Virus record (IMG/VR): IMGVR_UViG_3300017963_007646
Span: 1 to 36,997 of that record
Reading direction: 5' to 3' (one strand)
DNA length: 36,997 nucleotides
Source of the DNA: a virus
Numbering within the stretch: the stretch's first letter is position 1; every line of letters starts with the position of its first letter. Below are positions 5,262 to 32,225 of this stretch, in pieces. The position numbers and the translations under genes are program-made. The notes under the pieces were generated by a model. The model ran no database searches. It was not told the DNA's origin and saw nothing but the letters and a program-made list of their open reading frames with translations.

Positions 5262-5740
5262 TCCCCCTCCCCGCAGGGGGCCGGCGCATCTTCGCTATCG
5301 GTCTGCTGCGGCCTCGGCCCATACCCCACACGGACGTTGTAGAAATTGCTTCTGCGGGCTATGAGAACCCTGCCGTTCGCGCGGAGGCCGACGGAAAAGA
5401 TCATCGGTTCCTTCGCCACAAGTGATGCATCCAGCGGGTGTGGCTCACCCGGCTTTGGGATCGCCACCGGCCCCTCGGCTTCTACAATTCTTTTAGCCTT
5501 TCTCTTGGCCTTCTTGCCGCCTGTAGCCTTTCTCTTGGCCTTCTTGCCGCCTGCATCATCGTTGACCCCGCAAAGCGGATTGCCGCCATCCCAACTCGCC
5601 TCGGCAACGATAGTGAGGTCGTCGCCCTCGATCGGCCTGTCCAGCACCACCGAAAACGTCCGCTGCACCGCGCCCGGGCGGTCGCAGCCCAGCCCCTCGG
5701 CCACGCTGAGCACCTTCGATTGTCTCTTCGGCTCGTCCAT
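5258..5740 (-). CDS. Small tail-module protein with Lys-rich tandem repeat
   Basis: A 160-residue protein. The start at ATG 5740 is chosen over the longer frame because GAGG lies just upstream and the longer version would run far into the tape measure gene. The middle holds two copies of a ten-residue unit GGKKAKRKAT/K, encoded by an exact 30-bp tandem duplication apart from the last base. This gives a strongly basic, probably disordered tract. Flanking regions are beta-like (FSVVLDRPIEGDDLTIVAEA; MIFSVGLRANGRVLIARRSNFY). It begins seven bases after the tape measure stop and overlaps the next gene. A tail-tip role is inferred from position. Confidence 0.7.
   Translation of the reverse strand: MDEPKRQSKVLSVAEGLGCDRPGAVQRTFSVVLDRPIEGDDLTIVAEASWDGGNPLCGVNDDAGGKKAKRKATGGKKAKRKAKRIVEAEGPVAIPKPGEPHPLDASLVAKEPMIFSVGLRANGRVLIARRSNFYNVRVGYGPRPQQTDSEDAPAPCGEGE
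5495..5554. repeat. 30-bp tandem duplication
   Basis: Two adjacent 30-bp copies (5495-5524 and 5525-5554) differ only at the last base. They keep the reading frame and duplicate a Lys-rich decapeptide in the tail gene ending at 5258. Confidence 0.9.
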
Positions 5741-5747
5741 TTCGACC

Positions 5748-7748
5748 TCAGAAATCCGCCACAAGAACCTTTGTTCGGAGCCGTTCCGGCAGCTCGCGTA
5801 TCGCCTCCAGCGTTTTCTCGCTCGTACGGGCGCTCCGATCAGTGTTCTTGGCCACATCCTTCAGCCTCTTCTCGCTCTCGGCCATCGGGTTGTAATGCCC
5901 GGGCGCCCGCGTCATGAATCCGCGGTCGACCGCCGCTATCGAGACCGGCCCGGGCGGCTGGAAATCCTGCCGCGCCTTCTTTTCCAGATACCCGTATTTC
6001 TCGGCGATCAGTCCCCGCTCGATCTCGTTTCTGGCCGCGGCCAGTTCCTGTTCCCGCGCCGCCCGCAGAAGCGCCAGTTCGCGGTCGAGCCCCGTCTTTG
6101 TCGTCTCGATCCACAGCCGCAGGTTCTCATCGGCCAGCTGCTTTTCCCGGCTCATCCGTTCGGCGTCGGCCGCCCGCCAGCGGGCGTCTTCGGCGGCCTG
6201 CTGGGCCTTGGCCGGGCCCATGTACCCCGCCCGCCGGGCCTTCTCTATCCGGTCCAGTTCCTCGCGGAGCCGCTGGGCCGGGGTCTTCAGGCCCTCAATG
6301 GTCTGTTCGGCGAAGGCCTTCAATTCCTTCTGGCGGCTCTCGATAGCCGCTGCAAGTTCGGCGAACTTCATCTTGGCGATGTCCACGCCCGAGCTGATCC
6401 CCTCCGCGAGCATCCTTCCCAGTTTCAACACGCCCTTGCCGAGCATCTGTCCCTCGACGTCCGTTCGCGCCAGTATGCCGATGTCGCGCTGGAGCGTCCG
6501 GATCTCCTCATCGACCATCTCGATATTGCGGACGGTCGTCCCGAAGCCGATGTCCTGGCCTTCGCGTCCTGCCTTCTGTAATTCCGCCCTGAACTCTTTC
6601 AGGAAATCCAGCCGTTCCCGAAGCCTTGCCGCCTCCTGGCCTCCCATCTCCATGCCGCCGATCCGCAGGAAATCCCGCTGGTACTGCTGCCCCAGATCGA
6701 CGCGTCTCTCCAACTGAAACTTCTTGACCATCTCCTGCCAGTCTGCCGCCTCCTTCAGCTGCTTCTTAGCCCCCTCGCTCATCGGCGTCGGCACGCCCTT
6801 GTCCTGCATGATCTTGTATTGCAAATATCCCCCGGCGCCCAGAGCTGCCGCGCCGGCGGCGATTCCGCCCGCCGCCGCGGCAGCGCTGCCGCCGATGGCG
6901 ACCAGCGCCTTTGCGGCCTTGGTCAATCCCCATACCTCGGCGGTGAGTATCGCCACAGTCTCGATACTCTGCCTGTTGCCGTAAACCCACTTGGCGTTCT
7001 CGCCCAGCCAGCTGCCGATCGCCCTTACATTGGCCTCCACCTCCCTGCGGTGCTCCCTGAGGTAATCCGTCGCCATCGCCACGGTTGGTATGAATGCCTT
7101 GCCAAGCTCTTCCCGGATGTCGCCGACCATATTGGTGAACTGGGCGAGCTTTCCCGTCGCCGTTTCGGCCTCTGCCGTCGCCAGCGAGAAGCTTTCCGCC
7201 CCAATCTCCAGCAGCCTGTTAAACTTCTCCTGCGGCGTCAGCGTCGCGTCCAGCTTGATGCCGTAGCGGGTGAGTTGCGCCGTGTCGCCGGCGGCAGCCC
7301 TGGCCACCAGCAGCATTGCCGTATTGAGGTCTTTTCCGATCCGCCTCGAGAGCCCGATCGCCGCATATGTCGCCTTCTTCAGCCCCTCGCCCTCAAGCCT
7401 GCCCAGGCTCGCCAGCAGCTTCATTCCCGTCAGTACCGCCTCGTCGCCTATGATGGTCACATCCTGTATATCCGCTGCGAGTTTCTCCATCTCCGGCAGT
7501 TGTGCCCGCGCCCCGAGTAGCTCCAGCGCCGCCCCGAGGTTATTGACGGCCTGCTCCTGCACGCCCCACGCCGCCAGTCCCCGTGAAATCTCCCTCTGGA
7601 TGGCGTATATGCCGATCCCCCCGATCGCCAGGTTCCGGAGGCTCAATATCCTCTTGCCCAGCCCGGCCAGTCCCTTCTGGGCGGCCGCGAAGCCCTGCCC
7701 CGTGCGGTTCTGCGCCGCGATCACAATTTCGAGGGAGCGTTTTGCCAT
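5748..7748 (-). CDS. Tail tape measure protein
   Basis: A 666-residue helical protein with the hallmarks of a tape measure. It has an N-terminal MAKRSLEIVIAAQNRTGQGF segment, long Ala/Leu/Glu/Arg-rich helices, a hydrophobic Gly/Ala stretch (about residues 295-320) that could cross or insert into the membrane at DNA ejection, and extended coiled-coil helices from about 330 to 600. It directly follows the chaperone pair, as in lambda (G, GT, H). By the established proportionality of roughly 0.15 nm per residue, the tail would be near 100 nm. It is the longest gene of the tail module after the fibre gene. Confidence 0.92.
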   Translation of the reverse strand: MAKRSLEIVIAAQNRTGQGFAAAQKGLAGLGKRILSLRNLAIGGIGIYAIQREISRGLAAWGVQEQAVNNLGAALELLGARAQLPEMEKLAADIQDVTIIGDEAVLTGMKLLASLGRLEGEGLKKATYAAIGLSRRIGKDLNTAMLLVARAAAGDTAQLTRYGIKLDATLTPQEKFNRLLEIGAESFSLATAEAETATGKLAQFTNMVGDIREELGKAFIPTVAMATDYLREHRREVEANVRAIGSWLGENAKWVYGNRQSIETVAILTAEVWGLTKAAKALVAIGGSAAAAAGGIAAGAAALGAGGYLQYKIMQDKGVPTPMSEGAKKQLKEAADWQEMVKKFQLERRVDLGQQYQRDFLRIGGMEMGGQEAARLRERLDFLKEFRAELQKAGREGQDIGFGTTVRNIEMVDEEIRTLQRDIGILARTDVEGQMLGKGVLKLGRMLAEGISSGVDIAKMKFAELAAAIESRQKELKAFAEQTIEGLKTPAQRLREELDRIEKARRAGYMGPAKAQQAAEDARWRAADAERMSREKQLADENLRLWIETTKTGLDRELALLRAAREQELAAARNEIERGLIAEKYGYLEKKARQDFQPPGPVSIAAVDRGFMTRAPGHYNPMAESEKRLKDVAKNTDRSARTSEKTLEAIRELPERLRTKVLVADF

Positions 7749-7762
7749 CTCTTAGGCCCGGC

Positions 7763-8185
7763 TCATCTGCCTGCCGGGTGTCTTCCCTGCCTGCCGGCAG
7801 ACAGGTCGTTCATAATTTCCGCCTCGATCCGCTGCTGTTCGCCCCAGATGAATCCGCAGGCCCGCAGGAACGCCGCCGCCTGGTCCAGCGCCCCCCCGGG
7901 CTCCGGCGCCAGTCCTCTGCGGAACAGTTCGGCGTACTCCAGCAGTTCCCATATATCCGCTCCAATCTCGCGCCTCGGGCAGCCGGTGAGCCTCACTATG
8001 CCGTCATGGCACTTTTCGCACCCGGCCCCGTCGCATGCGGCGCACTGGGTCTCATAAGGCATCGCCGCCGTGGGCGGTGTTACGGTTGCCCGGCCGCTGC
8101 CGGACTGTCCGCCGCCGGCGGAACAGGCGCCGCACTGTCCTTGCTTGCAGATCCGTTCGAAGCCGTATTCGACGGCGAGCCGTAA
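7763..8185 (-). CDS. Frameshift extension of the tail assembly chaperone (GT-like)
   Basis: An open frame in the -1 register relative to the gene starting at 8559. Its frame stays open through the slippery heptamer at 8191-8185 but has no ATG until 8062, and neither that ATG nor the upstream GTG has a convincing ribosome binding site. It is therefore best read as a -1 frameshift extension: 125 residues from the first frame plus 140 from this one, 265 in total. The extension contains Cys pairs (CKQGQCGAC; CAACDGAGCEKC) that form a DnaJ-like zinc centre, then a helical part (ADIWELLEYAELFRRG). Its last 15 residues come from a copy of the dispersed CTGCC/GGCAG repeat. In lambda the equivalent GT product loads the tape measure and tail tube. 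Confidence 0.75.
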   Translation of the reverse strand, partial: LRLAVEYGFERICKQGQCGACSAGGGQSGSGRATVTPPTAAMPYETQCAACDGAGCEKCHDGIVRLTGCPRREIGADIWELLEYAELFRRGLAPEPGGALDQAAAFLRACGFIWGEQQRIEAEIMNDLSAGRQGRHPAGR

Positions 8186-8559
8186 AAATTTACATCGGGC
8201 GCCCACCCCCACGCCCGGTATATCAGTTCCTGCGCCTCATGGTATGTCAGCACCGTGTCGGCCTCGGCCGGGTCGTAGGGGATTTCCCTATCGTCGCGGT
8301 CCCGCAGGTTCCGCCAGCCGGCCAGGACGAACCGCAGGGTCGCGAACGTCTTGTCGATCACGCCGGCGGCCGTATCGGGGTGTTCAATCTCGTCGATCAT
8401 GGCCGCCAGTTTCCGCTGATCGCGGCCCGACAGGCATCGGAAAACGAATATCGGCGCGTCGGCCGGCTGTTCCTTCGTCGGCTTGCCCTGCTCGTCAAGC
8501 GTCCTGTCGCCCCGCAGCACCAGGTCGAACGTGTCATTTGGGCTCAGCGGTATCGGCAT
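8080..8559 (-). CDS. Tail assembly chaperone (G-like)
   Basis: A 159-residue protein from ATG 8559 with GGAG seven bases upstream. It sits between the tail tube gene and the tape measure, where siphoviruses encode the tail assembly chaperone. The N-terminal part (PLSPNDTFDLVLRGDRTLDEQG; FVFRCLSGRDQRKLAAMIDEIE) is a compact alpha/beta domain, followed by helices; the zero-frame tail beyond the slippery site is Ser/Ala/Pro-rich. The slippery heptamer falls after residue 123, so most ribosomes would make this short form and a minority the longer form. Its ATG lies 26 nt inside the previous gene. Confidence 0.78.
   Translation of the reverse strand: MPIPLSPNDTFDLVLRGDRTLDEQGKPTKEQPADAPIFVFRCLSGRDQRKLAAMIDEIEHPDTAAGVIDKTFATLRFVLAGWRNLRDRDDREIPYDPAEADTVLTYHEAQELIYRAWGWAPDVNFYGSPSNTASNGSASKDSAAPVPPAADSPAAAGQP
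8185..8191 (-). promoter_or_regulatory. -1 ribosomal frameshift slippery heptamer A AAT TTT
   Basis: Read on the - strand, the zero-frame codons are GTA AAT TTT TAC, so the site fits X XXY YYZ exactly (AAA TTT T). Slipping back one base puts ribosomes into the open frame ending at 7763. Downstream, ACGG-CTCG-CCGT (8183-8172) and TCGAA...TTCGA (8172-8157) can form small hairpins. The position, between the two overlapping tail-chaperone frames, is the one where lambda-like phages carry this signal. Confidence 0.78.
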
Positions 8560-8866
8560 CTTTCACTCCATCCTTCCTGCCCGTCCAGCAGGCGGGTCTG
8601 TCGTCGGCGTCGTCGGCTCGCGCTTCCTCCCGGTTCCCGGGCGCTGCCGCCCTGCTCCCGGCTTCCACTTCCTCCTCCGGCGGCCTGCCGCCGGCGATCT
8701 CACCCTCGAGGTATCTCTTCCGCCTGGCGGGCGCAAACGTGTTCCACAGGCTCAGTATCTCCCGGTCGCTGGCCCCGTCGAACCCGCCGTGCCGGCTGCG
8801 GACGGCCGCTCGTATGAGTTCGATGTCGCTGCCCGCCGGCGTCGTTCTCTTCCTGCTCTTCGCCAT
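8534..8866 (-). CDS. Small tail-module protein
   Basis: A 110-residue protein from ATG 8866, with AAAGGA seven bases upstream; an upstream ATG at 8890 has no such site. The N-terminus is basic (MAKSRKRTTPAGSD), then a helical segment (DREILSLWNTFAPARRKRYLEGE) and an acidic, low-complexity C-terminus. It lies between the tail tube and the chaperone gene and overlaps the latter by 26 nt. Its basic/acidic layout and position suggest a small assembly factor, but no family was recognised. Confidence 0.65.
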   Translation of the reverse strand: MAKSRKRTTPAGSDIELIRAAVRSRHGGFDGASDREILSLWNTFAPARRKRYLEGEIAGGRPPEEEVEAGSRAAAPGNREEARADDADDRPACWTGRKDGVKDADTAEPK

Positions 8867-8884: not shown

Positions 8885-8941
8885 CCTCAAACCCCTGCCT
8901 GCCCTGCCTACCGGCAGGCAGCCGGGTCAAGGCTCAAGCTG
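8885..8941. repeat. Intergenic copy of CTGCC/GGCAG repeat (copy A)
   Basis: The gap between the tail tube gene and the next gene carries an imperfect palindrome CTGCCTACCGGCAG (8904-8917) preceded by CCTGCCTGCC. The first 36 or so bases closely match the gap at 9904-9940, so the two are copies of one element. Confidence 0.6.
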
Positions 8942-8943
8942 GC

Positions 8944-9864
8944 CTACGGCGTGACCGCCGCGGCGGTGATCGTCAGTTCGTCGTCGCCTTCGTCCATGTT
9001 GCACTGCCCGGACAAATCGTAGCTCGCCTTGGAATCGCGGTCGGCCTGTTGCGGCGCCATCAGTTGCACCTTGGGGGCCGCGATGGTCACGTCCACCGTC
9101 CCGTCCGACAGCAGCAGGCTGAACGCCGACTCGGTCTTGGCGATCCACAGGCCGCGGAAGTCGATGTCCGCCGACGCCTCCACCAGCGGATCCATGCCGA
9201 TGACGTACCGGCGTGCCGCCCCGATGATGTAGTACGCCACGCCCTCGGCGGCGGTGATGTCTTCAAGCGGCTCCACGGGGTTGTTGGGATTGATCGAGAA
9301 GCGGCTGATCCGCGGGGTCTCCCCCCCCAGGTCCAGCGTCGCGCCCTTCGCGAGCACCGGCGGCGACGCCGTCTGCGTCGTCGTCGGCATCTCTTCATCT
9401 TCCAGCTTGGTGTAGATGCCCGTGAACGTGAATTCGACGAACACCTGCTTGCCCCACTCGCCGGCCATCTCGAACGTCCCTGCCGCCCCGTAAAGCTCCT
9501 CGTGCAGCCCGTCGGACCAGACGTCCAGCGTCACGGTGGACTGGTCGTCCACCAGGCTCGTCGGGGCCAGCACGCCCGTATCGAGTTTCATTCCGCATCC
9601 TTGCAGGCACGCCAGCAGCCCCGCATCCAGACCGTCGCTGCCGTTGCTGCGGAGTTCCACGCGGAACGTGCACGTCCCGATCGATGGGCCCCTCTCGGCC
9701 GTCCACGGCCCGCCGAAGCCGACCGCCGGCTCCCGCTGTATCATGTTGTCTTCGGGATTGATCACCGGATCGTAGACCAGCATCTCGGTGGTGGCTTCCA
9801 CCGGCGTGCCCTTTTCGGCCTCCACCAGAACGCGGATAACTTTTCTTCTGCCAAGTTTCGCCAT
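8944..9864 (-). CDS. Major tail protein (tail tube)
   Basis: A 306-residue beta-rich protein from ATG 9864, with GAAGGAG six bases upstream; a longer frame from 9903 lacks this. The opening GRRKVIRVLVEAEKGTPV..LVYDPVINPEDNMIQREP is typical of siphoviral tail tube subunits, which begin with an Ala/Val strand followed by a loop listing residues around a KG or AEKGTP turn. Strand-rich middle sections (STVTLDVWSDGLHEELYGAAGTFEMAGEWGKQVFVEF) and the absence of any sheath gene support a tube protein of a non-contractile tail. It lies immediately after the tail terminator and before the chaperones, as in lambda gene V. Confidence 0.82.
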   Translation of the reverse strand: MAKLGRRKVIRVLVEAEKGTPVEATTEMLVYDPVINPEDNMIQREPAVGFGGPWTAERGPSIGTCTFRVELRSNGSDGLDAGLLACLQGCGMKLDTGVLAPTSLVDDQSTVTLDVWSDGLHEELYGAAGTFEMAGEWGKQVFVEFTFTGIYTKLEDEEMPTTTQTASPPVLAKGATLDLGGETPRISRFSINPNNPVEPLEDITAAEGVAYYIIGAARRYVIGMDPLVEASADIDFRGLWIAKTESAFSLLLSDGTVDVTIAAPKVQLMAPQQADRDSKASYDLSGQCNMDEGDDELTITAAAVTP

Positions 9865-9903
9865 TTCATGCTCCTTCACCCGCCCGTCGGGCGGTTTTCT
9901 CAA

Positions 9904-23456: not shown

Positions 23457-25673
23457 TTATAACGGTCGCGGCGTCCACGCATCGGCGCCGCCCTCTGCCG
23501 GCGGCTTCTGTGGCCCGCTCGCCCGCGTTAGTTCCTGTCGCTTCCACGCCATCACTTCCTCATCTTCCGCCGGCAGCAGATGCACATTTAGCAGGTATGC
23601 CCCCACAATCTGGTAGGCTTCGCAGTCGCGGTAGTCGTGCCGCACGCCGGCTGCCTTGGCGGTCCACACCTCCGCCTTTGTCCGGGGGTCCACCGTCTTC
23701 TGGACCGCGGCCATCTGGGCGTTATACTCGTCGTCGTTGGGGATGTTCAGCATCCACGCCTCCGCCGCCTTGGCGGTCATATCTCCCTGACCGTCGCTCT
23801 TTTTCACCCCTGCGACTATGAGTTCGCTCAGCAGATCGTTGGCCCTGTGCGTGTCGACCATCAAAGCCCTCAGGTGCCCATAATCGGCCTTTCCCCCCTC
23901 GCTCATCGGATTCTTCATCGGCCAGTACAGGCCCACCCCGCTGCGGTTGGCGCCTTTGATCGCTGTGACGATAGGTTGGCGGGGTATAGCGTATTGATAG
24001 ACCTGCTGGGTCCTCGATGCCTCCATCAGCCTGTCGGCTGTGCCGCCGGAATCTATCAGCGCCCGGGCCACCATAAGCGGCGGAAACTCCCCGCCGTCCA
24101 CCGTCCATTTCGTCGCGAAGATCAGTCTGTCCAGTTCGTCGAACGTGAGCACCTTGCCATGCCAGACCCTCGCCGACCGCATCCCACCTCCCCATGCCCG
24201 TATGACCACGTAAAAGCTGTCCGGCTGCGTGTCGATCGTGGCCGATATAATCCACGTCCACCTCGGCGCCGTGCCTGCCGGCAGGGCGCCCCTTTCGGCG
24301 GTGCACTTGGCGGCGAACACGCTCTCTGCCACACGCTTGGCCCGGAACTCAAACGGCTCGGCAAGCCGATTGGTCACGAAAAAGAACAGCGCCGCCGGGT
24401 CGCCCTGGCCCCTCAGCCACTCCGCCGCCAGGCTCCCCCAGTGCAGCCACATGCAGTTCAGCCCGGAAACGTGGAATCCCACCCGCGTCTCATGCGGCCA
24501 TCGCTCGACGTCCTCGGCGTCCTCGTGGCGCCGTCCCCAGAAGTCCACCACGAACCCCTCCGCCGTCGTCCACATCCCCCGGCGGATCATCGCCGTCTTG
24601 GCGTGATGATATATCCTCCCCTGGCAGTGCTGGCACTGGTACCACACCGCCCGCTCGCGTTCCCCGGCCAGGAGTCCTGCAAGCTCTCGTCGCCCCTCGG
24701 CCTTGCCTAGCCGCTGTCGCCAAGCCTTAAGCCACCGGATTTCCTCCGCCAACCCATCCCGATTGGCCATCCGGATCTCCGACTCCCCCGCCGTGTAATG
24801 GGCCCAGCCGCGCCCCGCCGCACCCTCGGCCGCGGCAATCGCCTCCTCCGTCAGCTCCGCATCCAGCCATCGCACCCGCTGCCATCTCAGCACCTGGTAG
24901 ACCCCGCAATGCGGGCACGGCGCGTGGAAATACAGCTTGACCGACGAGGCCTCGAACAGTTGGCTGATCTTCCCCGCCGTCGTCGTCGGCGTCGACACGT
25001 TTACCTGGAGCCGCTGGTCGCCGTAGCTGGTCAGGCGGACCTCAGTGGCCGCGATGGCGTCGGGCTCCTCGCCGGTCCACGGCTCGAACTTGTCCACCTC
25101 GTCATTGATCACCCGCCTGTAGGGGTTTGAGGCCATCGAGGTGGCCGATCCGCTCCACATCAGCCCCAGGTGGAAACCGTTCAGCAGATCAATCGACTCG
25201 ATCAGCGTGTCTCGGCCCTCCCGGCCGATCAGTTCCCTCAGCACCGGCGTCCTGCGGAACAGCGGCAGCACATCGCTCTTGACGATCTGCCGGCCCTTGC
25301 CGCGGCTTGGCAGTGTCAGCCCCATGGGGTCCGGCTCGCAATGGGCCCAGTACGCCATCAGCGTCCGCATCGCCTCGCTGCCGCCGATCTGGCCGGCCTT
25401 GCGGATGTTGCCCTGCACGATCCCGGGGCGAACCAGTATGTCCATGATTCCCCGCAGGTACGGGGCGTTGTCGTTTCGCCAGGGGCCCTTCCGGCTTCCC
25501 CTCCGCAGCCGCCTCCACCGTTCCGCCCACTCGCTCGGCCTGATCTCTTCCGGCAATTGCCACGCGGTCTGTTCCGCCGCGTCCCACATCGGCTCCTCGG
25601 GGACCGCCGCCTGGCCGCCCAATGCGTCCGGGCCGGCCGGTTTCCGATCAGTTTTCCGTTTTCTTGCCGCCAT
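23457..25673 (-). CDS. terL: Terminase large subunit (lambda gpA family)
   Basis: A 738-residue ATPase/nuclease from ATG 25673; a TTG 18 nt upstream is weaker. Residues ~80-110 (VQGNIRKAGQIGGSEAMRT) carry the P-loop-like region of the gpA group, and residues 188-196 (VINDEVDKF) a Walker B-like segment. Two CxxC pairs (CPHCG near residue 253 and CQHCQG) form the zinc site usual in this family. The nuclease region starts at WTWIISATIDTQPDSFYVVIRAWG, with Asp of the TIDTQ strand as a candidate metal ligand. It packages genome DNA through the portal. Context is correct: TerS directly upstream with a 26-nt overlap. Confidence 0.92.
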   Translation of the reverse strand: MAARKRKTDRKPAGPDALGGQAAVPEEPMWDAAEQTAWQLPEEIRPSEWAERWRRLRRGSRKGPWRNDNAPYLRGIMDILVRPGIVQGNIRKAGQIGGSEAMRTLMAYWAHCEPDPMGLTLPSRGKGRQIVKSDVLPLFRRTPVLRELIGREGRDTLIESIDLLNGFHLGLMWSGSATSMASNPYRRVINDEVDKFEPWTGEEPDAIAATEVRLTSYGDQRLQVNVSTPTTTAGKISQLFEASSVKLYFHAPCPHCGVYQVLRWQRVRWLDAELTEEAIAAAEGAAGRGWAHYTAGESEIRMANRDGLAEEIRWLKAWRQRLGKAEGRRELAGLLAGERERAVWYQCQHCQGRIYHHAKTAMIRRGMWTTAEGFVVDFWGRRHEDAEDVERWPHETRVGFHVSGLNCMWLHWGSLAAEWLRGQGDPAALFFFVTNRLAEPFEFRAKRVAESVFAAKCTAERGALPAGTAPRWTWIISATIDTQPDSFYVVIRAWGGGMRSARVWHGKVLTFDELDRLIFATKWTVDGGEFPPLMVARALIDSGGTADRLMEASRTQQVYQYAIPRQPIVTAIKGANRSGVGLYWPMKNPMSEGGKADYGHLRALMVDTHRANDLLSELIVAGVKKSDGQGDMTAKAAEAWMLNIPNDDEYNAQMAAVQKTVDPRTKAEVWTAKAAGVRHDYRDCEAYQIVGAYLLNVHLLPAEDEEVMAWKRQELTRASGPQKPPAEGGADAWTPRPL

Positions 25674-27877: not shown

Positions 27878-29824
27878 CTACTTCGCGACGGCCTTGGCCA
27901 GCTCGTCGATCCGCTTGGAAACCGCCGCCCGCCGCCAGTCGCCCCGCAGACCGAGCGCCTGGCAGGCCAGCAATGCATCTCGATCCTCGCATTCGGCTAT
28001 CGCCGCGAGCGCATCGGCCTTGCGGCCCTGCACGATCCGGTTGCGAAGATGGTTCGCCGCTTTTTGCCCGTCCGTCTCGCCGCCGGCATCGTCGCCGCTA
28101 CCGGCGCCCATGGCCTTCTTGGCCGCTTTGGCCTTCTTGCCCTTCTTACCTGGCTCGGGCTTCTTCTCCGCCGGCTCCTCAGCGAAATCCTCCTTCTTCG
28201 GCCTCGGCGGGATATCCACTCCCCGCGCCGTCGCGATCGCCTCGGCTGCGTCGACCTCCGCCATCGTGTCGGCGTCCAGCGGGACGTTTTCCGCCCCGCC
28301 GCGGTAATCGATGCCCGGAGCTTCCATCATCACGCACGCCGATTCCCGCCACAGCTCGGCAAGGATCTTCCCGCCGATCTCCGTCTTGCCCTCGGCCAGG
28401 GCGATCCGCATCTCCAGCAGCTCGTCACGCGTCCGCGACCAGTGTGACGGGGATCCCTCAAAGCCGACATAGCGGGCGATGATGGTCTCGACCATTCGCT
28501 TCGGGGCCCCGGCTGCGAACCCCTCCAAATATGCCGCGATCGCCTCGTCCACGGCCTGAAAATACTCCCACATCGCCACGGCGAGCTTCTCGGCGGCGTT
28601 GCGCGGGAACGCCGCCTGAGCCTTCTCAATCTCGCTCTGCCTGATTTTCGATTGACCGGCGTTGCCTGTGCTCTTCTTGCCCCGCCCCTTCTTAACCTTT
28701 TCGACGCAGGCCGGGCATATCGCCCCGCTGTCGGTCGATGTATATCCGCTCACGGCGTCGGCGATGCGGCCGCACGACTGGCACACGTCCAGCCCCGCCT
28801 TCTTGGCCTTGGCCGCGGCGGCGGTGCGTTTCTTTTTGTCCGCCTTGTGTTTGGCGGCCTTGACCTTCTCCCAGGCCTTGCTCTTGGCCTCGTAGCATGG
28901 CCGGTTCGTGCAGTATCCCTTCTTGTCCGATCCCTGCGGGCGGATGCCCGCAAAGAGCATCGGCTGGTCGGCGTAGCTCGCCGTGTTGTCCGGGCAGCCC
29001 TCGCAGCGGCCCCGCCCGGCCGCCGCTTTGAACGGCTCGCCGGTCTCAACCTCGTGCTTCAGCCACCCGCAGGCCGCCAGCCCGCACATCGCCCATGCGA
29101 CCTGCTTTCGCAGCTCGGCCATCGACATTACGTAATCGCGTGGGTCCCCGGCCGCGTGGCCCCAATACTTGACCTCCACCCATCCGGTCTTTTCGCCGCC
29201 CCACCTCAGGTTCGTGGCGGCGCCGGCCAGATCGATCTGCCTCTTGACGTCGCCGACGCGGGCGATCAGTTCCGCCTGGTGCACCGGCAGCCGGCCGCTG
29301 GCCGCCAGCTTCATCACCGGCTCGGCCAGCCGGGTGAGCGACAGGTGCCTTCGGACCGTATCCTCGGATATGTTCGCCTGGTGGGCGATCTGCGCCACGG
29401 ACATCCCCGCCTCGGTGGCCTGCCCGAATACCGCCGCCACCTCCGCGTGGTTCAGGTCCCGCCGCTGGACGTTCTCGGCCAGCCTGGCCCGTGCTTCCCA
29501 CGCGTCATCGACGGACGCATAGAGCTTGGCCTCGACGAAAGTCTCGCCCGCCCGCTTTGCCGCCTCGAGCCGTTGATGCCCGGCAATCAGCCGGAACGCC
29601 CACTTGCTGCCCGCCGGCATCTTGCGGGCGACGATCGGCTGGAGCATCCCCAGCTCGCTGATCGACTCGCCCAGCTCAGCCAGAAACCCCTCGTGCATCT
29701 CCGTCCGCAGGTTGTGCGTCGCGTCGATCTGGTCGATCGGCAGCATGACCAGGTCGGCCCTCTTCGCCCCGGGCCCGCCTTCGGGCCCCGCGGCCGTCAA
29801 CATGTTTGCTTCGCGTTCGCTCAT
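27878..29824 (-). CDS. Large ParB-like protein with HTH and zinc-finger regions
   Basis: A 648-residue ParB/Spo0J/Noc-type protein from ATG 29824 (AGGA eight bases upstream). Residues ~25-125 are the CTP-binding ParB N-terminal domain: PIVARKMPAGSKWAFRLIAGHQRLEAAKRAG and the box ENVQRRDLN (117-125). A helix-turn-helix follows (MSVAQIAHQANISEDTVRRHL), then a Cys-rich middle (CEGC...CPDN; CQSCGRI..; CPACVEK) suggesting zinc, then Lys/Ala-rich helices. It differs from the two short ParB-domain proteins, which lack an HTH. In phages such proteins may segregate genomes, act as regulators or organise replication. No ParA gene is seen. Confidence 0.8.
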   Translation of the reverse strand: MSEREANMLTAAGPEGGPGAKRADLVMLPIDQIDATHNLRTEMHEGFLAELGESISELGMLQPIVARKMPAGSKWAFRLIAGHQRLEAAKRAGETFVEAKLYASVDDAWEARARLAENVQRRDLNHAEVAAVFGQATEAGMSVAQIAHQANISEDTVRRHLSLTRLAEPVMKLAASGRLPVHQAELIARVGDVKRQIDLAGAATNLRWGGEKTGWVEVKYWGHAAGDPRDYVMSMAELRKQVAWAMCGLAACGWLKHEVETGEPFKAAAGRGRCEGCPDNTASYADQPMLFAGIRPQGSDKKGYCTNRPCYEAKSKAWEKVKAAKHKADKKKRTAAAAKAKKAGLDVCQSCGRIADAVSGYTSTDSGAICPACVEKVKKGRGKKSTGNAGQSKIRQSEIEKAQAAFPRNAAEKLAVAMWEYFQAVDEAIAAYLEGFAAGAPKRMVETIIARYVGFEGSPSHWSRTRDELLEMRIALAEGKTEIGGKILAELWRESACVMMEAPGIDYRGGAENVPLDADTMAEVDAAEAIATARGVDIPPRPKKEDFAEEPAEKKPEPGKKGKKAKAAKKAMGAGSGDDAGGETDGQKAANHLRNRIVQGRKADALAAIAECEDRDALLACQALGLRGDWRRAAVSKRIDELAKAVAK

Positions 29825-31203: not shown

Positions 31204-31947
31204 TTATCCGCCCTCCGCTTCGGCGCGCATCCTGTCGACGTATGTCTGCGATATGTCAATCGCAATGCACCGCCGCCCCAGCTTCATCGCCGCCCTGTAC
31301 GTTGTGCCGCTTCCGGCCATCGGGTCGACGACCAGGTCCCCGGGCTTTGTGGATAGCAGTATGCACCGCTCGACGAGCGCCTGGGGGAATTGCGTTGGGT
31401 GCCATCGCCGCCGCTTTTTGAACGTCCCGCACACGCGGGGGAAGTCCCATACATCGTCAGGCACGCGCCCGCGCGGGTCCGCGCGCTTATCGTTGTACTG
31501 CGTCTGCCGGGCCGACGGCTCGCGGATCGCATCCGGATATAGCGGCGCCCCGTCTTGGCGGATCCGGAAGATCGGTCGGTAGCCGTTGCCAAGATCGTTC
31601 TGCCGATACTGGCCGAACGTAAACCGCCAGATAATCTTGCGGACCTCGCAGCGATCCCAGGTTGCCATCATCGGCCAGAGGACCGGCTCGTAGCGGGCGT
31701 TCGGCGTGAAAAAGACGGTGGTCCCGTGGACCGTGGACCTCGACAGCCACCGGCGGAGCGTCGACTCATATTCCGCCGCCGGCAACCTGTCCCGGTAGCC
31801 GTCATATTGCAAGCCGAGATTGTCGGGCGGGTCGAGAAAGATCATCTCCGCGTAGATCTTGTAAAGTGCCAGCATCCCCGGCCCGTCGCCGCAGACGATA
31901 CAGCCCTGCGACTCACCGGCCATGACCGCTGCGATTTCGGCGTTCAT
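31204..31947 (-). CDS. DNA amino-methyltransferase (beta class)
   Basis: A 247-residue SAM-dependent DNA methyltransferase from ATG 31947 (GAGAGG upstream; ATGA overlap with the previous gene). Motif IV, LDPPDN, is at residues 38-43 and motif I, DPMAGSGTT, at 208-216, so the order IV then I marks the beta class (N6-adenine or N4-cytosine). The target-recognition region lies between. Motif IV has Asp (DPPD) where these enzymes usually have an aromatic residue (DPPY/F/W). No cognate restriction enzyme is nearby, so it is an orphan, perhaps protecting phage DNA. It is the only complete methyltransferase in the window. Confidence 0.85.
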   Translation of the reverse strand: MNAEIAAVMAGESQGCIVCGDGPGMLALYKIYAEMIFLDPPDNLGLQYDGYRDRLPAAEYESTLRRWLSRSTVHGTTVFFTPNARYEPVLWPMMATWDRCEVRKIIWRFTFGQYRQNDLGNGYRPIFRIRQDGAPLYPDAIREPSARQTQYNDKRADPRGRVPDDVWDFPRVCGTFKKRRRWHPTQFPQALVERCILLSTKPGDLVVDPMAGSGTTYRAAMKLGRRCIAIDISQTYVDRMRAEAEGG

Positions 31948-32225
31948 TTGGCGGCCTCTCCGGCCGATTCTTTTGCCAAGACACGGCCAGTACCAGCGCA
32001 ACAGCAACAGCGGCCCTGAATTATTAGGCCCGCCAGATTCATAGTTTTGATCCCCATATCGCAGTTAGTACAGTCAGTCCATTCCGGGCCCGTACGAATA
32101 ACGGGGATACCTTGACCTCGATGAATCGCTCGCCATTCCTCATCACTGAGGCTGCCGCTTCTTTCATATTGGCGCGTCCTTTCGTCAGGGGTTTCGCCAC
32201 GGCACTTGCCACCTTCGGTATTCAT
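31944..32225 (-). CDS. Small DnaJ-like zinc-finger protein
   Basis: A 93-residue protein with GGAGGCGG before ATG 32225. A C-terminal CTNCDMGIKTM...GRCCCCAGTGRV carries the paired Cys pattern of DnaJ-type zinc fingers (CxxCxGxG). The N-terminal 40 residues are helical (LSDEEWRAIHRGQGI). It overlaps both neighbours by 4 nt. Such small finger proteins are frequent in phage early regions and may bind DNA or RNA. Confidence 0.68.
   Translation of the reverse strand: MNTEGGKCRGETPDERTRQYERSGSLSDEEWRAIHRGQGIPVIRTGPEWTDCTNCDMGIKTMNLAGLIIQGRCCCCAGTGRVLAKESAGEAAK

Follow-up and report, generated by a model that had tools for sequence, protein, structure and literature searches.

The closest described counterpart of the locus reported here is the gpG/gpGT pair of phage lambda, in which a G frame is followed by a longer -1 extension and an X XXY YYZ slippery site lies near the end of G. 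The lambda heptamer is G GGA AAG. Of the two lambda products, gpG binds the tape measure protein, and gpGT uses its T part to bind the tail shaft subunit (PMC5009743). The heptamer AAAUUUU is on record as a slippery site of plant umbraviruses (PMC4737148) and of invertebrate roniviruses (PMC3169540); no documented case of bacterial or phage use of A AAT TTT was found in the literature searched.

The stretch analyzed here, referred to as the window, spans 36,997 bases and is a viral contig known from metagenome sequence (IMG/VR record IMGVR_UViG_3300017963_007646). It carries what is very probably, on sequence grounds, a lambda G/GT-type tail assembly chaperone gene whose two products arise by a -1 slip at A AAT TTT (Table 1). 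Unlike lambda, the window uses a different heptamer, retains approximately 34 zero-frame residues downstream of the shift, and encodes an extension that bears a Cys-rich block and does not resemble a described T domain. The frameshift system is of a known kind; the window represents a variant of it in its Cys-rich extension class and its A AAT TTT heptamer.

Table 1. Features of the tail chaperone locus, in window coordinates
Feature	Position	Strand	Basis
Tail tube protein	8944..9903	-	Match to Pfam Phage_tube_2 (E = 4.8e-6), slightly short of the curated threshold
Zero-frame tail assembly chaperone (G-like), 159 aa	8080..8559	-	ORF and family alignment
G-rich GTGGGGGTGGG, anti-SD-complementary, ~10 nt before the heptamer; candidate stimulator of the shift	8202..8212	-	Duplex energy
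-1 shift heptamer A AAT TTT	8185..8191 (read 8191 to 8185)	-	Phase checked; six relatives have an in-phase heptamer at the homologous site
-1 frame extension (T-like), 140 aa, Cys-rich	7763..8185	-	Coding switch, alignments, conservation from first post-shift residues
CAACDGAGCEKC block of the extension; with Cys 8149-8147 and CP 7981-7976 probably zinc-binding	8009..8044	-	Cys conservation, profile match
Tape measure protein, 666 aa, next gene past the extension	5748..7748	-	Position, length; homologue in the same place in L019

Reading frames and slippery heptamer

An earlier note on this DNA had described overlapping zero and -1 frames joined by a programmed frameshift. The overlap is borne out: read on the minus strand, the zero frame begins with an ATG at 8559 and ends at the 8080 stop, and the -1 frame, open from 8236, terminates at 7763. 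For the zero frame, codon log-odds trained on 18 other window genes lie between +0.2 and +0.7 per codon as far as ∼8204 and turn negative from ∼8183, the point from which the -1 frame is positive except for a weak stretch at ∼8120-8099. The heptamer sits at this switch of coding signal between the frames. Its phase, also claimed in the note, proved exact by codon check: the zero-frame codons GTA AAT TTT TAC fit X XXY YYZ, and after a -1 slip the reading continues as TTA CGG CTC (LRLAV...).

A AAT TTT is the sole in-phase XXXYYYZ within the frame overlap. Across 28 window genes, in-phase XXXYYYZ heptamers occur at a background rate of 29 per 9,509 codons and those composed of A and T only at 3 per 9,509, the latter corresponding to ∼0.016 expected per 52-codon overlap. 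The site differs from the usual phage shift site and is unusual.

Among possible stimulators, GTGGGGGTGGG pairs with the 16S tail at -9.7 kcal/mol, a value equaled or bettered by 5% of random 22-mers and obtained for one site among 18 tested, and therefore to be held lightly. It could act as a Shine-Dalgarno-like stimulator through this pairing; an anti-SD-like stretch upstream of the heptamer is not strong in every relative. A search for a stem-loop or pseudoknot downstream of the window heptamer found nothing beyond chance. One relative, L038, has a distinct arrangement at 7290-7302: the zero-frame stop directly follows A AAA AAA and overlaps an ATGATG, and a strong predicted hairpin comes next (-27.5 kcal/mol, with 0 of 200 random stretches as good). 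Frameshifting and re-initiation may both act there.

Conservation among close relatives

Searches of IMG/VR with single window proteins returned no chaperone, extension, capsid or tail tube relatives, nor did single-protein searches of INPHARED with the extension or chaperone. Relatives were reached through the terminase first and alignment searches next. Terminase relatives led to contig IMGVR_UViG_3300009494_000018 (L012, L019, L020), which encodes both chaperone frames and a tail tube 46% identical to that of the window; alignment searches added L021 and L022 and later L034, L035, L038 and others. The family considered here consists of the window and six relatives (L020, L021, L022, L034, L035 and L038), all independent contigs from different metagenomes. 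Two scans of bacterial and archaeal genomes detected no relatives of the extension, and an attempt at host assignment found no tRNA genes in the window.

All six relatives encode both frames between tail tube and tape measure, as the window does; across the seven members, the pre-shift chaperone has 110 to 125 residues and the -1 extension 114 to 140. Every junction carries an in-phase heptamer: A AAT TTT in the window, A AAA AAA in L020, L034, L035 and L038, and A AAA AAC in L021 and L022. By chance, each relative would be expected to have 0.003 to 0.11 XXX(A/T)3Z heptamers within the admissible interval. The earlier note had singled out loss of the heptamer with retention of both frames as evidence against its reading; instead, an in-phase heptamer is retained at the homologous codon in 6/6 close relatives, though in different bases. 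The ability to shift thus appears to be maintained in the family while the bases of the heptamer change. Where only the -1 frame is read, the third codon position is the most variable in all six pairs compared; in the short frame overlap the pattern of codon-position variation is not clear-cut.

The beginning of the extension constrains where the shift takes place. The extensions align from their first residues, opening with [LI]R[LIV]AV in 6/7 and MRVAA in L038. In L035, just 6 nt of open -1 frame precede the shift point; in L022 the figure is 12 nt. L020 and L035 contain no ATG, GTG or TTG between the point where the -1 frame opens and ∼100 nt beyond the shift, and the first -1 start codon of L022 lies 84 nt past the shift, inside the conserved part of the extension. 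Because the frame opens so late in L035 and L022 and starts are absent from L020 and L035, the shift must occur at or beside the heptamer; in L035 and L022, the late opening and lack of a usable start therefore rule out a separate extension gene.

For the window itself, the earlier remark that the extension lacks a convincing start is fair, since two GTGs (8212 and 8206) precede the shift in the -1 frame and no start codon occurs in the first 100 nt past it; in some relatives the same remark is decisive. A separate overlapping gene, translated from either GTG by internal initiation or coupling and never fused to the chaperone, would draw on these in-frame codons and the G-rich stretch around them, on the ATGATG of L038, which overlaps the zero-frame stop, and on the ATG annotated five codons into the extension of the more distant phage RcZahn. 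This account is improbable given that the two GTGs are not common to the relatives, that the start codons it needs are missing from L020 and L035 and, ahead of the conserved extension start, from L022, that the heptamer is in phase in all members, and that the first post-shift residues are conserved although they lie upstream of any downstream start.

Fusion could also come about by transcriptional slippage on a homopolymer run, for which the nine-A runs of L035 and L021 would be suited. However, the window offers only A3T5 and L022 only six A, both short for efficient polymerase slippage, and every site fits the codon phase of tandem tRNA slippage, so that polymerase slippage is less probable still. 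The reading of a programmed -1 ribosomal frameshift is supported by the coding switch, the phase, the conserved heptamers and the start-less relatives.

Cys-rich extension domain

The extension is defined by the signature CxxCxGxGCxxC ... CP ... GGxxxQ. In window numbering, C13, C48, C51, C56, C59, C69 and P70 are invariant (7/7 sequences), as is the C/C/G/G/C/C pattern of the block. The best solved-structure match of the family profile is the DnaJ Zn domain (1exk, E = 0.0011), and it covers the CxxCxGxGCxxC block only. Whereas the DnaJ zinc domain has four CxxCxGxG repeats, the window extension has a single block and no J domain. The "DnaJ-like zinc motif" of the earlier note is thus present as CAACDGAGCEKC, one CxxCxGxGCxxC block, but does not amount to a whole DnaJ zinc domain.

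Structurally, prediction for the window extension gave a pLDDT of 41 and was unusable. For the L035 homologue, AlphaFold gave a model of moderate confidence (pLDDT 71) that contains two long helices and, at the Cys block, a hairpin; it has no fold match at E <= 0.001 in the PDB or BFVD, DnaJ included. The cysteine pattern suggests that the extension is probably folded around zinc. The window extension has no match in Pfam or PHROGs, and the Cys block of the L035 extension matches phrog_25876, a family of unknown function (E = 0.001). The domain is largely undescribed, with no Pfam or PHROG family covering it convincingly.

A near-perfect palindrome, CTGCCGGCAGGCAG, occurs in the window at 7787-7804, 8904-8921 and 24271-24286 (5 strand-wise matches vs 0.03 expected). 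Because one copy encodes the C-terminal SAGRQ of the extension, its extra C-terminal residues may derive from an inserted repeat.

Distant phages with a related tail tube

An in-phase heptamer followed by a -1 extension was found in 11/11 more distant phages with a related tail tube. The heptamer is A AAA AAC in JP1, P24, RcZahn, S-LBS1, S-CBS1 and ZX4290, G GGA AAC in RS1, RHph_I4 and L338C, G GGA AAA in L042, and A AAA AAG in L043. A frameshift mutation or sequencing error splitting one long gene would account for the two-frame layout as such; this layout recurs, each time with a heptamer, in all seven family contigs, which come from different metagenomes, and in these eleven phages, making such an origin exceedingly improbable.

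The distant extensions split into a Cys-poor and a Cys-rich class. The Cys-poor class matches phrog_680 in 4/4 tested (Rhodovulum phage RS1, Synechococcus phages S-LBS1 and S-CBS1, and Vibrio phage ZX4290) and DUF1799 in 3/4 (all but ZX4290). These phages share with the window the gene position, a -1 heptamer and a related tail tube, yet their extension domain is different, with no detectable similarity. The Cys-rich class comprises RcZahn, JP1, P24, RHph_I4, L338C and L042. Profile comparison aligns the window family with the Cys-rich class at 94.5% probability over 56 columns and with the DUF1799 class at an hhalign probability of 0.9%, both being pairwise probabilities and not database-wide significances. 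The window extension is neither lambda T nor of the DUF1799/phrog_680 kind.

Rhodobacter phage RcZahn (gp27/gp28), Rhizobium phages RHph_I4 and L338C, Agrobacterium phage JP1 and Alteromonas phage P24 have the tail tube family in common with the window. They carry an in-phase A AAA AAC or G GGA AAC and a Cys-rich extension of the form CxxC...C...CP...G...Q, with the two frames annotated as separate genes. Unlike the window extension, theirs show another N-terminal Cys spacing and no CxxCxGxGCxxC block. In RcZahn (L027, MW677529.1), A AAA AAC lies in phase at 5395-5401, followed by the Cys-rich -1 extension. The genome paper for this phage reports no clear evidence of frameshift sequences there (PMC8601537), and an in-phase site does exist. 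A weak tblastn match (E 0.9) to the portal gene of a Rhodobacteraceae phage was set aside as chance.

On these comparisons, the window extension belongs to a family whose remote kin occur in phages of Rhodobacter, Rhizobium, Agrobacterium and Alteromonas. Its make-up, called unusual in the earlier note, is not unique, having remote kin in phages of Alphaproteobacteria and Alteromonas.

Genomic neighborhood

The gene order of tail tube, chaperone, extension and tape measure is the same in the window and its relatives as in lambda, and the positional analogy with lambda G/GT stands, as a Phage_tube_2 gene and a tape measure gene flank the chaperone. The zero-frame protein of the window matches PHROG tail assembly chaperones weakly (E = 0.02-0.045); that of L035 matches phrog_313 at E = 1.3e-4.

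A small gene lies between tail tube and chaperone in the window (8534-8866, minus strand), L019 (7525-7764, minus) and L033 (4823-5035, plus). Its motif RHGGF..ASD.....W is conserved, and the window and L019 proteins are 37.5% identical over 56 aa (E = 3.5e-7). It has no Pfam or PHROG name and is missing at that place in L034, L035 and L038.

Five further contigs (L008, L009, L010, L011 and L013) encode terminases 44-62% identical to that of the window, and none of these fragment records has a match to its tail tube or chaperone. Terminase-related contigs without such a match suggest that head and tail modules are exchanged. Elsewhere, the window encodes a ParB-like protein (27878-29824, minus), a DNA methylase (31204-32007, minus) and a phage integrase (1-816, plus), which suggests a temperate or plasmid-like life style.

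Proposed mechanism and implications

In the proposed mechanism, most ribosomes would stop at 8080 and yield the 159-aa G protein, whose last ∼34 residues make up a poorly conserved tail of low complexity. A minority would slip by -1 at 8191-8185, where tRNA-Asn and tRNA-Phe would re-pair with AAA UUU, and read the -1 frame to 7763, giving a fusion of ∼265 aa. The common G part would coat the tape measure protein, and the Cys-rich extension, probably zinc-folded, would bind tail tube subunits; by analogy with lambda, tape measure coating would fall to the short form and tail tube recruitment to the rare long form. Frameshifting in vivo and its efficiency and ratio are what we infer from sequence, and the tube-recruiting role is what we infer from lambda.

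A broader reading, which we offer tentatively and hold to be somewhat doubtful, is that the Cys-rich extensions of the window family, RcZahn, L338C, JP1 and P24 form one ancient, undescribed class of frameshift-delivered zinc domain. Such a domain might recruit the tail tube through a DnaJ-like zinc finger and have replaced lambda T or DUF1799 by modular swap behind a related tail tube, being reached in the window via an A AAU UUU site unreported in bacteria.

Frameshifted tail chaperones are common, and the extension that decides the binding partner of the long form is poorly catalogued. Here, a second, Cys-rich extension class trails a related tail tube in phages of several bacterial groups. 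The window also represents a natural swap at the Y position of the heptamer (AAA to TTT) with function apparently kept, which makes it useful for learning which shift sites bacterial ribosomes accept.
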